A DNA stretch of 64,000 bases from an uncultured Bacteroidia bacterium (GTDB lineage: Bacteria; Bacteroidota; Bacteroidia; Bacteroidales; UBA932). Position 1 is the first letter of the stretch. The number at the start of each line of letters is the position of its first letter. A program made the position numbers and the translations under genes. The stretch lies in assembly GCA_902789435.1 (NCBI GenBank), contig CADAOA010000001.1, positions 28,050 to 92,049 on the forward strand, written 5' to 3'. This document shows, piece after piece, positions 19,428-22,653 of the stretch. The notes beneath the pieces are model-generated. The model saw nothing but the letters and a program-made list of their open reading frames with translations, searched no databases and was not told where the DNA came from.

Positions 19428-19805
19428 TCAGAAACCGTCCATCAGGCGGTCAATATCGCGCCTTTCCTTCTTGGTAGGGCGGCCGCTTCCACGTTCCCTT
19501 TTCAGGAATATCGTTTCAACCGGAGCTATAAGCTTGTCCAGCTCGCTTTGCGGAGTGGTGTTTTCTGCATACTGGTCCACGAGCTTGGCTCCCTGGCGTT
19601 TGTCAACCGGCTCAATCACCGTATAACTGTAATGGATAGCTCCCTTGCGGACTTCTATGGAATCTCCCGCCTTGATTTCCCTGGAGGATTTGGTCTGGGC
19701 GCCGTTTACGAAGACCTTGCCCGTGCGGCAGGCCTCGGCAGCTTCACTGCGTGTCTTGAACACCCTTATAGCCCAAAGGTATTTATCTATCCGTACGTTA
19801 TCCAT
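19428..19805 (-). CDS. S4-domain RNA-binding protein (Hsp15-like)
   Basis: A 125-residue protein whose first 60 residues form an S4 RNA-binding domain (RIDKYLWAIRVFKTRSEA, FVNGAQTKSSREIKAGD), as in Hsp15/RqcH-partner proteins that bind the 50S subunit carrying stalled nascent chains. The C-terminal half is basic (LKRERGSGRPTKKERRD). The ATG at 19805 is used because the frame upstream is the Cys/His repeat DNA of the preceding gene read in another frame. The gene overlaps that gene by 8 bp, so the two are coupled. Confidence 0.85.
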   Translation of the reverse strand: MDNVRIDKYLWAIRVFKTRSEAAEACRTGKVFVNGAQTKSSREIKAGDSIEVRKGAIHYSYTVIEPVDKRQGAKLVDQYAENTTPQSELDKLIAPVETIFLKRERGSGRPTKKERRDIDRLMDGF

Positions 19806-20766
19806 TGTGATGGTGATGATGTCCGCAATCGCAATCGTCATCGTGATGATGGTGGTGTCCGCAATCGCACTCGTCGTCATCTTCCTCTTCTTCTTCTTTC
19901 GGAGGCTCCGGAATGTTACACAGATAGATGCGCAGGAATGATGATGTCGGGTTATCGCCCTCCTGGCTCGGAGCTATTGTCATTTCCTGGATGTCGTGAG
20001 GAACAAGGGCAAGCGGGAATTTGCCGTCCAAGGTAATGCAGGTCTCGTCAGAGATTTCTGTATAACCTCTGAAGTCTTTTACCTTCAGCGATGTTTGGTT
20101 GTCGAGATTAAGGATGGCCATAAAGCTTTCCGTCTGGTCTGGAGCTATGGTCTGAGGTTTGGTGATGGCAACCCTTTCCATCCTGAAAAGACATTCCTCA
20201 GGAGCCACATATTCCGGATTGGTGGCACTGAGGTTGATGAAATCCAGAGCTTCCACCAGTTGGTCGGTCTCTTCTATATTGAAGTCGCAAGGAGAGTTCT
20301 GGGCTACTTCCACATATCTTACGCCTTCTCCGATGCGGAACGGAACGCCCGGACGGATGTAGAAAGTTTCTCCCTCTTCCGGCCCGATCTCGTTCAAGGT
20401 CTCGAGTATGTTTCCACCCTGGCTTCTTTCATAGATATCCGTGGCGGTAATGTCTTTCTTGAACCCGATCCAGATGGATGAATCTTCCTTTGCGGAAAGA
20501 ATGTAGAGCATCCTTTCCTTGCCCCAGCATCCGTAGCGTGGAAGAGCGGTCCGGTCATCCGGGGAAACCGTGATATGTCCACTCTCATCGCTGATTTTAA
20601 CGGTTATGGGCAGATTGCCCTGGAAAAAACTGAAGGCCTTGTCGCCTAGCAGATTGCCCATATAGGTATCTATCAGGTCTTCCAGGGAGTTGTCCTTGAG
20701 GAAGCCGTTCAGGGCAGTGCTTTCAGGCTTTATGCTGTCCAGCAGCAGGGGATATATCTTTTTCAT
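19798..20766 (-). CDS. degenerate class I phosphomannose isomerase homologue with Cys/His-rich tail
   Basis: A 322-residue protein whose core aligns by eye with class I mannose-6-phosphate isomerases: SGHITVSPDD (62-71) against their LSVQVHPDD, WGKERMLYIL (81-90) against GKTEMWYVL, and YIRPGVPFRIGEGV against YIPAGRVHAIGAGV. All four zinc ligands appear replaced: Gln by T66, His by S68, Glu by R85 and His by F143. The usual N-terminal segment is also shortened. From residue 291 an acidic run is followed by two copies of CDCG-HHHHH (300-308, 312-320), a likely metal-binding tail. It overlaps the CPBP gene by one base and lies in an operon with a sugar nucleotidyltransferase. It is probably not an active isomerase; its role is unknown. 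Confidence 0.75.
   Translation of the reverse strand: MKKIYPLLLDSIKPESTALNGFLKDNSLEDLIDTYMGNLLGDKAFSFFQGNLPITVKISDESGHITVSPDDRTALPRYGCWGKERMLYILSAKEDSSIWIGFKKDITATDIYERSQGGNILETLNEIGPEEGETFYIRPGVPFRIGEGVRYVEVAQNSPCDFNIEETDQLVEALDFINLSATNPEYVAPEECLFRMERVAITKPQTIAPDQTESFMAILNLDNQTSLKVKDFRGYTEISDETCITLDGKFPLALVPHDIQEMTIAPSQEGDNPTSSFLRIYLCNIPEPPKEEEEEDDDECDCGHHHHHDDDCDCGHHHHHNG
19807..19869 (-). repeat. tandem duplication encoding two CDCG-His5 blocks
   Basis: Two 27-bp copies (19843-19869 and 19807-19833), separated by three Asp codons, encode the metal-binding tail of the isomerase homologue. Codons vary between GAC/GAT and CAC/CAT, so the copies are not fresh duplicates. Confidence 0.8.
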
Positions 20767-21719
20767 TACAAAGCGGCGGTATTCTCGTTGCCGGTGTCAG
20801 CCAACAATATTTCTTTCGGCTTGAAGCTCTGTGGTTTCTTAGGCAGATACTTGTTCAGAAGGAATATGCCTGCAATTACAATCAGGGCACCTCCGCCAAC
20901 CAGTACCCAGTACCACATGTCGGTTCCGGTAAGCTGGACCATATTCTCCCTCGATGTTGCATCGGGATCCATCTCAGGCAGAGCCCAGAACAAAGCGATT
21001 GAAGAGAAGTTGTTTACAAAATGCATGAAGATCACGGCCCAGATACTGTGGCTTCTATAGTAAACCCATCCGAAAAGACATCCCAGGACGAAAGCCGGAA
21101 TGGCCTGCCAGAAATTCAGGTGCATGGCTCCGAAAAGAAGTGAAGACCATAGGATGGCCAATACGACAGAGCCTTTTGAGAGCAAGCCCCTCTCTATGGT
21201 TCCTCTCATTATGAATTCCTCAAAAAGCGGTGCGAATATGGCAACTGAAACAATGGTGTCCACAGGCCTGGTGGAAATGCTCTCGAACATTTCCTTGAAG
21301 TTATCCGGCATCGGGAAATAACTGGTAACCGGATCCAGAACCCAGCTCAGACCCAATGTCATCAAAAGCAGCAAGATGCCAAGAGTCAGGAAGTTGAACT
21401 TTCCAAGATGCGGAGAGTCAACTTTGACTGGAGCTTTCATCGGATCATGGCTGTAGCTGTTTCCCATCAGCCAGATGAACAACACCGGGATAATCATCTG
21501 GAAGAAATAAATAAGACTTAGTTTTCCAGACAGGATGCTTGTAATGCCTGAAGGATCAGATACCGTCTTGGCTGCCATCGACAGCTCTCCGTTTATGGCG
21601 GCTGCAATGAATGCGGCAACCATTGAAACGATACCGCCCAGGATGAACAGGATCAGCAGGATTACCAGGCTGCCTCCGATCCCGGGCTTGTAATATTTTG
21701 GTTTTGAGAAAATATTCAT
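20766..21719 (-). CDS. CPBP family intramembrane metalloprotease
   Basis: A 317-residue protein with about eight membrane segments. The CPBP (CAAX protease and bacteriocin-processing) motifs are E167-E168-x(3)-R172 in LFEEFIMRG, H200 in FGAMHLNFW and a later HFVNN motif. It belongs to the Rce1-like glutamic intramembrane proteases, with roles in processing or immunity that differ between members. The stop codon overlaps the next start (TAATG). It is 28 bp downstream of the nucleotidyltransferase gene. Confidence 0.87.
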   Translation of the reverse strand: MNIFSKPKYYKPGIGGSLVILLILFILGGIVSMVAAFIAAAINGELSMAAKTVSDPSGITSILSGKLSLIYFFQMIIPVLFIWLMGNSYSHDPMKAPVKVDSPHLGKFNFLTLGILLLLMTLGLSWVLDPVTSYFPMPDNFKEMFESISTRPVDTIVSVAIFAPLFEEFIMRGTIERGLLSKGSVVLAILWSSLLFGAMHLNFWQAIPAFVLGCLFGWVYYRSHSIWAVIFMHFVNNFSSIALFWALPEMDPDATSRENMVQLTGTDMWYWVLVGGGALIVIAGIFLLNKYLPKKPQSFKPKEILLADTGNENTAAL

Positions 21720-21747: not shown

Positions 21748-22653
21748 TTAGAAAAGAGGTGAAGGGTAAGTGCCGTCTTCAGCCATTTCTTTCAGGCGGG
21801 CTACAACTTTAGCGCGGTCTTCCTTGTAAGTTACTCCGAACCAGGCGGACGGGGAGGAAAGAACCTTTACGTTAGCCTTGCCTTCCTCAATCATCCTGCT
21901 GACAACGGAAGGAACGTAGAATTCCTTCTTTGGCTCGTCGATGTTCTGGGTAAGGAATTCCTTGAAGAGAACATCGGATTCTTCCATATAGTCAGGGGTG
22001 AATCCCCACATGTTCATTGATGTGCAGGTCTTTGCCGGAAGAGAATGCTCCACGCCCAGGAGGTTTTCTCCCAGAATCCTGCGGCCTTCCTTTCGGATGT
22101 TGCCGTGTTCTTCCACCTTTACCAGATGGTCCTTGCTGTCCAGTGTGCAAATACCTCTGGAAACGCTTCCGCTCTCGGATAAGGTGTTTTTCAGATAGAA
22201 TCCTACCATGCAGAACTTCCCTTTCTGGCCTTTCCTTATCCTGCCAAGGTAGTCCGCCAGGCACTTGAAGGATTCCCTTCCGTAGAAATCGTCCGAGTTG
22301 ATTACTGCAAAAGGTCTGGTTATCACATCCTTCGCGCTGAGGACTGCCTGACCTGTTCCCCAAGGCTTCTCTCTGGGAACCTTTGGGCAGAAGCCTGCCG
22401 GAAGGTTATCCGGCTCTTGGGTTACTATGGTGTATTTGATCTTGCCTTTGAATTTGGAAGCAACCTTCTCCTCAAACTCTGCGCGGAATTTCTCCCTGAC
22501 AACGAACACAACGTCTGCAAAACCTGCAAGGATCGCGTCATAAATGGAAAAATCCATAATGGTCTCACCTTTAGGTCCCACGCCGTCAAGTTGTTTGAGT
22601 CCTCCGTACCTGCTGCCCATACCGGCAGCCATAATCAGAAGTGTAGGTTTCAT
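21748..22653 (-). CDS. sugar-phosphate nucleotidyltransferase-like protein
   Basis: A 301-residue GT-A-type nucleotidyltransferase. The start signature MAAGMGSRYGGLKQLDGVGPKGE (8-30) has the GxG-x-R loop and a Lys that binds nucleotide, GTGQAVL near 97-103 and NSDDFYG near 118-124 provide the sugar and metal sites. Its family in Bacteroidetes is close to UTP-glucose-1-phosphate uridylyltransferases and related enzymes, but substrate cannot be told. It is the first gene of the operon with CPBP, the isomerase homologue and the S4 protein. Confidence 0.8.
   Translation of the reverse strand: MKPTLLIMAAGMGSRYGGLKQLDGVGPKGETIMDFSIYDAILAGFADVVFVVREKFRAEFEEKVASKFKGKIKYTIVTQEPDNLPAGFCPKVPREKPWGTGQAVLSAKDVITRPFAVINSDDFYGRESFKCLADYLGRIRKGQKGKFCMVGFYLKNTLSESGSVSRGICTLDSKDHLVKVEEHGNIRKEGRRILGENLLGVEHSLPAKTCTSMNMWGFTPDYMEESDVLFKEFLTQNIDEPKKEFYVPSVVSRMIEEGKANVKVLSSPSAWFGVTYKEDRAKVVARLKEMAEDGTYPSPLF

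Follow-up and report, generated by a model that had tools for sequence, protein, structure and literature searches.

The M6PI-like gene and its neighbours

The window (the whole stretch of DNA that was analysed, 64,000 nucleotides) contains a gene related to mannose-6-phosphate isomerase, abbreviated M6PI throughout. The coordinates, strand and length of its ORF were verified and are listed with the other features in Table 1. The neighbours named in the original prediction, a nucleotidyltransferase-like gene, a CPBP gene and an S4 (Hsp15-like) gene, are present on the same strand. The CPBP gene and the M6PI-like gene have one base in common. With its start at 19805, picked by the 125-residue length of several relatives, the S4 gene overlaps the tail end of the M6PI-like gene. 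Three of the operon's proteins gave no match to anti-phage defence models, and no relative was present among the viral contigs searched.

Table 1. Features of the M6PI-like locus in the window.
Feature	Position	Strand	Basis
S4-domain (Hsp15-like) gene	19428..19805	-	ORF, domain search, neighbour in relatives
M6PI-like pseudoenzyme (putative), 322 residues	19798..20766	-	ORF, TIGR00218 match, PDB matches, hhalign
Acidic and His/Cys tail, residues 287-322	19801..19908	-	Sequence composition
CDCG-HHHHH block 2, residues 312-320	19807..19833	-	ORF translation
CDCG-HHHHH block 1, residues 300-308	19843..19869	-	ORF translation
Codons 159-163; P159 and N163 opposite Asp and Arg of intact copies	20278..20292	-	Alignment
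Codon 143; F143 at second His ligand position	20338..20340	-	Alignments
Codons 83-85; K83 kept, E84, R85 at Glu ligand position	20512..20520	-	Alignments
Codons 66-68 (T66, V67, S68); Gln and His ligand positions	20563..20571	-	Multiple and profile alignments
CPBP (Rce1-like) membrane protein gene	20766..21719	-	PF02517, E = 2.9e-23; adjoins orthologues in relatives
Sugar nucleotidyltransferase-like gene	21748..22653	-	PF00483, E = 2.3e-6

The recognisable class I M6PI sequence of the window protein spans residues 14-287. It matches TIGR00218 (ManA) with an E value of 1.6e-5 and 24.3 bits, far below the cut-off of 116.2 bits. This cut-off is strict, since 9 of 14 named control genomes had a match and 5 passed; in the window's genus, 11 of 39 genomes have a match above it. 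The Pfam search matched the window protein to no family, and hence to no FKBP domain either; L018, an intact orthologue from the same genus, matches PF20511 and PF21621. The best PDB sequence matches were 1zx5 (E = 2.1e-8) and 1qwr, both class I M6PIs. Foldseek placed the same two structures first (best E values 1.1e-10 and 2.0e-10, TM 0.28-0.37) when searched with two low-confidence AlphaFold2 models (mean pLDDT 45.6 and 55.0). This ranking supports a probable M6PI (bicupin) fold family, not residue positions; because the mean pLDDT is low, neither residues nor the pocket were read from the models. Thirteen relatives, with 54-94% identity over the best segment, come from Bacteroidales or Bacteroidia records, and the titles of 8 of these records name the rumen, omasum or reticulum.

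Linked orthologues in the family

By position, the window gene is orthologous to ordinary class I M6PIs in its family. Intact and lost copies alike recurrently have CPBP on the upstream side and S4 on the downstream side, with pth and L25 alongside. We counted a copy as linked when at least one of these two, CPBP upstream of it or S4 downstream, lay near by on the same strand; some genera offered one marker alone (S4 in g22; CPBP in g3, g10, g12, g17 and g21). From 134 M6PI-like rows we removed 5 short ones and retained 129, comprising 81 linked copies (L057, at a contig end, was placed by hand) and 48 unlinked copies. The 13 initial relative loci encoded proteins identical to those of genomes surveyed and were merged with them. 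Copies in which His, Glu, His and Arg were all present were called intact, which divided the linked copies into 43 intact and 38 lost. G022 and G118, both counted intact, read HHEH and have Gly replacing the active-site Lys. Longer M6PI-like frames of 537-621 residues were also seen, at G107:C22:7106-7516 and in G182, G185, G234, G262 and G268.

The linked copies come from 16 genera, in 13 of which every copy read is intact; the exceptions are g1 (the window's genus), g16 and g22. A linked copy was found in 36 of the 39 genomes searched in the window's genus (29 lost, 7 intact) and not in G027, G154 and G174. A quickly built tree, in which several branches are long, gathers the 48 unlinked copies into a single supported group; a second supported group contains the 29 lost copies from the window's genus and sits beside its 7 intact ones. 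The lost state needs a minimum of 3 changes on this tree, a count that does not distinguish gain from loss.

Loss of the metal site and other catalytic residues

Gln98, His100, Glu118 and His175 are described as the conserved metal-binding residues of the Bacillus amyloliquefaciens M6PI in an extract of PMC4718643, which also names Lys116 among the catalytic residues of the Bacillus enzyme and uses a K96Q mutant model of the B. subtilis enzyme. The proposal that T66, S68, R85 and F143 replace the four zinc ligands in the window protein was borne out. In a profile-profile alignment (hhalign, probability 100, E = 8.7e-55) of 13 sequences including the window protein (A1) with 10 intact orthologues (A2), T66 and S68 pair with Q and H of QxHPDD, R85 with E of GKxE, and F143 with H of PGxxH. 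A separate multiple alignment gave the same four placements. Alignment and a predicted structure had both been suggested as checks; the former confirmed the ligand positions, whereas the models were too poor for residues. Against 1zx5 (Archaeoglobus), which itself has His at the Gln position, the Glu pairs with E84, one residue off R85, and E84 might conceivably still serve as a metal ligand. Both His positions (S68 and F143) are lost under either alignment. The active-site Lys, two residues before the Glu position, is retained as K83.

The losses extend beyond the metal site. Past the second ligand motif, an Asp and an Arg spaced four residues apart in intact copies are replaced by P159 and N163 in the window protein; these positions, which we take to be D270 and R274 of the Salmonella enzyme, presumably have a catalytic role. 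The window protein also lacks roughly 50 residues at its N terminus, among them WGG and GESWE. In a two-pattern search for these N-terminal motifs, 36 of the 43 intact linked copies had both, as did 45 of the 48 unlinked ones; among 37 lost copies (one contig-end copy omitted), 31 have neither motif, 5 the first alone and 1 both. The Asp, the Arg and the N-terminal stretch are thus gone besides the zinc ligands. There is good support for the view of the original prediction that this is not a normal isomerase, and we regard the protein as a putative pseudoenzyme. Six linked copies of genus g22 are also ligand-depleted, namely L101 (TCKH), L111 (QNAF), L119 (QHTY), L165 and L166 (both RHVY) and L171 (LNAY); 5 of the 6 have no His/Cys tail, and each such genome has an unlinked QHEH copy.

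These losses bear on whether the protein might still be an enzyme, that is, an isomerase or epimerase that acts on another substrate and needs either no metal or the metal bound by its tail. According to an extract of PMC3765361, metal-independent epimerases exist in the cupin superfamily, and 22 of the 29 lost copies in the window's genus have retained the active-site Lys. The window protein, however, lacks the ligands, the Asp, the Arg and the N-terminal motifs, and we give this explanation only a small chance of being correct.

Selection on the core and the rebuilt pocket

Twelve linked lost copies were compared pairwise (66 pairs), and dS was under 1.2 in 26 pairs. Across these 26 pairs the core dN/dS was 0.037-0.150, which is strong purifying selection; among G160, G162 and G165, where no second class I copy was found, it was 0.037-0.043. 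Open frames and low dN/dS rule out a decaying pseudogene. Particular new residues recur in the lost copies of the genus: S68 and R85 are each found in 19 of 29 and F143 in 22 of 29, and PHD or PHE occurs at positions 256-258 in 17 of the 19 copies with S and R. The low dN/dS, together with the new residues fixed in this S-R subclade, indicates that the ligand-free protein is kept by selection, its old pocket apparently rebuilt rather than decaying. Such a pocket may bind a ligand different from mannose 6-phosphate.

An alternative explanation is a regulatory or ligand-sensing pseudoenzyme. The rebuilt pocket (K83, E84, R85, S68 and F143) would bind a phosphosugar or another anion and control a partner, with the tail tuning the response to metal. 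In the main subclade the specific new residues have become fixed and do not drift, the core is under strong purifying selection, and the nucleotidyltransferase-like and CPBP genes adjoin the lost copies of the genus that were read, bar L057 at its contig end. The partner and the ligand are nevertheless hypothetical, and models with mean pLDDT of 45.6 and 55.0 are too poor for a pocket; we consider this explanation unlikely, though worth keeping in view. A more specific form of it, in which a zinc isomerase was converted in place in one genus to a metal-dependent regulator, the S/R/F pocket reading a sugar phosphate or anion and the tail reading metal supply so that both jointly control a partner encoded beside it, appears distinctly unlikely.

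The His/Cys tail

As had been noted, the window protein terminates in an acidic run and two CDCG-HHHHH blocks (ECDCGHHHHHDDDCDCGHHHHHNG). Its last 40 residues contain 15 His and Cys, and the runner-up had 8 among 404 mechanically called ORFs of at least 100 residues in 464 kb (the window and 20 stretches of its genome). With a tail scored as present when at least 6 His and Cys lay beyond position 285, tails were found on 18 of 43 intact linked, 26 of 38 lost linked and 0 of 48 unlinked copies. CxC occurs in 17 of the 18 tailed intact and 23 of the 26 tailed lost copies. Past position 285, the 26 tailed lost copies consist of 21% H, 18% D, 14% E and 10% C. None of 30 loci belonging to other families within the order scored as tailed; these were the 30 top-ranking places in a search of 119 genomes that gave matches in 111 and included 2 genomes of the window's own family. 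As far as sampled, the tail is restricted to the linked lineage of the window's family.

The original prediction held that the tail was gained together with ligand loss. This coupling is not supported and was rejected, given tails of the same type on intact orthologues (18 of 43), including all 7 intact copies of the window's genus. Since these orthologues occupy the same locus, the tail probably predates the loss in the window's lineage, and within the genus an older tail is the most likely order of events. The search for homologues with losses and a tail, also proposed then, gave 38 lost linked copies, 26 of them tailed. Four of the 29 lost copies of the genus (G150, G168, G171 and G175) have 0-3 His and Cys past position 285, as do, with 0-2, 8 of the 9 lost copies of g16 and g22, G084 being the exception. 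Near-tailless lost copies exist; therefore the tail is not the reason for keeping every lost copy.

In the 26 pairs used for the core, silent changes per site in the tail exceeded replacements per site, which is weaker evidence than that for the core as the tail alignment is gappy. Between the tails of G000 and G166 we counted 3.5 silent changes over 16.0 sites and 2.5 others over 89.0 sites. From its composition and the selection on it, the tail likely binds metal. Two irregular tails were observed. In G108 (L007 / L040; M6PI-like gene from 1501 / 4001) the array apparently passes into similar repeats read in a different frame (ITTITTMTTT...), with the S4 gene 446 nt further on. In L049 (G158) a single TGA falls inside the region that matches the window protein, and the match extends past it; the ORF stops early in the tail.

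We also considered a functionless, slippage-prone repeat attached to a core kept for a role unrelated to metal. Tail length and order change fast, L006 and L007 have long repeat arrays, the latter apparently running into another frame, and 12 of the 38 lost copies bear little or no tail. Slippage alone would sit poorly with a His, Cys, Asp, Glu and Gly composition and a CxC kept across genera despite varying length, with the favouring of silent changes, and with mixed His codons in the window's tail (CAT 5, CAC 5). We regard a functionless tail as improbable.

Other M6PI genes in the same genomes

Within the window's genus, searches for class I and type II genes turned up a further M6PI gene in 27 of the 29 genomes whose linked copy is lost and in 0 of the 7 whose linked copy is intact. 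In 20 of the 29 there is a class I gene of QHEH type, unlinked and without a tail, a count that includes G169 and G172, seen in partial views, and the window's own broken gene; G159 has an unlinked class I gene plus a type II gene. Type II genes are the only other M6PI in 7 of the 29, these being 7 of the 9 lost-copy genomes in which no second class I gene was found; one type II protein read at full length has 455 residues. Neither class was found besides the lost copy in G167 (87% complete) and G173 (74% complete). Family-wide, a second class I copy accompanies 29 of 38 lost versus 3 of 43 intact linked copies, where absence outside g1, g16 and g22 rests on single matches and type II genes were searched in g1 only.

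Fisher tests gave 7e-11 (family) and 0.0014 (genus) for a second class I copy and 4e-6 for any other M6PI gene in the genus; these values ignore kinship and are not taken as proof. Independent-pair tests on the tree had no power, with 2 usable pairs for loss against a second copy and 6 for tail against loss. Ligand loss thus goes with another M6PI gene in the genus, and because independent losses are few (a minimum of 3 state changes) this is an association, not proof. Compensation by a second class I copy alone is an incomplete account, as a repeat search found none in 9 of the 29 lost-copy genomes of the genus.

The window's own genome has a second class I gene, a canonical ManA, which is broken in the assembly. 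At L002:1390-2300 (G000:C6) it is 107 bp short compared with the G166 copy and its frame is broken. Its flanking DNA is 99.1-99.5% identical to that of G166, yet the core dS at the linked locus is 0.63; recent transfer, wrong binning of the contig or a fault in the assembly could each account for this. A type II gene was not found in the window's genome. Since the second class I gene is broken and a type II gene was not found, the genome may have no working M6PI of either kind.

A proposed pseudoenzyme kept for metal binding

The explanation that we favour, at a probability of about 0.5, is that an isomerase turned pseudoenzyme in place and was kept as a metal-binding protein, a buffer or donor with a SlyD-like tail. 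The linked enzyme would first have borne a His/Cys/acid tail that bound Zn, Ni or similar ions beside the zinc enzyme. Isomerisation would then have been taken over by another M6PI, after which catalysis could be lost in the linked copy while the copy was retained for its tail on a stable bicupin scaffold. The tail would buffer metal in the cytosol or pass it on, as is supposed for the SlyD tail. In the main subclade the pocket would have been rebuilt (S68, R85, F143 and the new PHD motif), with a ligand that is perhaps not mannose 6-phosphate.

One locus offers a graded natural series, from intact tail-less through intact tailed copies and copies with partly lost ligands to fully lost and tailed ones. 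This series, with the link between loss and another M6PI in one genus, allows tests of why a pseudoenzyme is retained once its reaction is carried out elsewhere, and of whether a metal-binding tail can explain the retention.

Comparison with known systems

Our literature searches, which covered titles and the beginnings of abstracts, found nothing on a ligand-free or His/Cys-tailed M6PI. Type II M6PIs (PF01050), called bifunctional in an extract of PMC4718643 and combining the isomerase with GDP-mannose pyrophosphorylase, have the isomerase reaction in common with the family; they are a separate gene and family from the window protein. Class I M6PIs (ManA; TIGR00218, PF20511/PF21621; 1zx5 and 1qwr) resemble the window protein in sequence and in the locus of family members. 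Unlike them, the window protein has no metal ligands, Asp, Arg or WGG/GESWE motifs, has no Pfam match, and bears a metal-type tail.

The closest parallel to the tail is SlyD, whose variable tail of His, Cys, Asp and Glu binds up to 7 Ni(II) according to an extract of PMC7055735. Four FKBP places are present in the window's genome, and the one that was read (L235) has no SlyD-like tail. SlyD carries an FKBP domain, whereas the window protein is an unrelated cupin whose metal binding and delivery are putative. The window tail is likewise C-terminal, variable and rich in His, Cys, Asp and Glu, and like the SlyD tail described in that extract (PMC7055735) it is carried on an isomerase fold.
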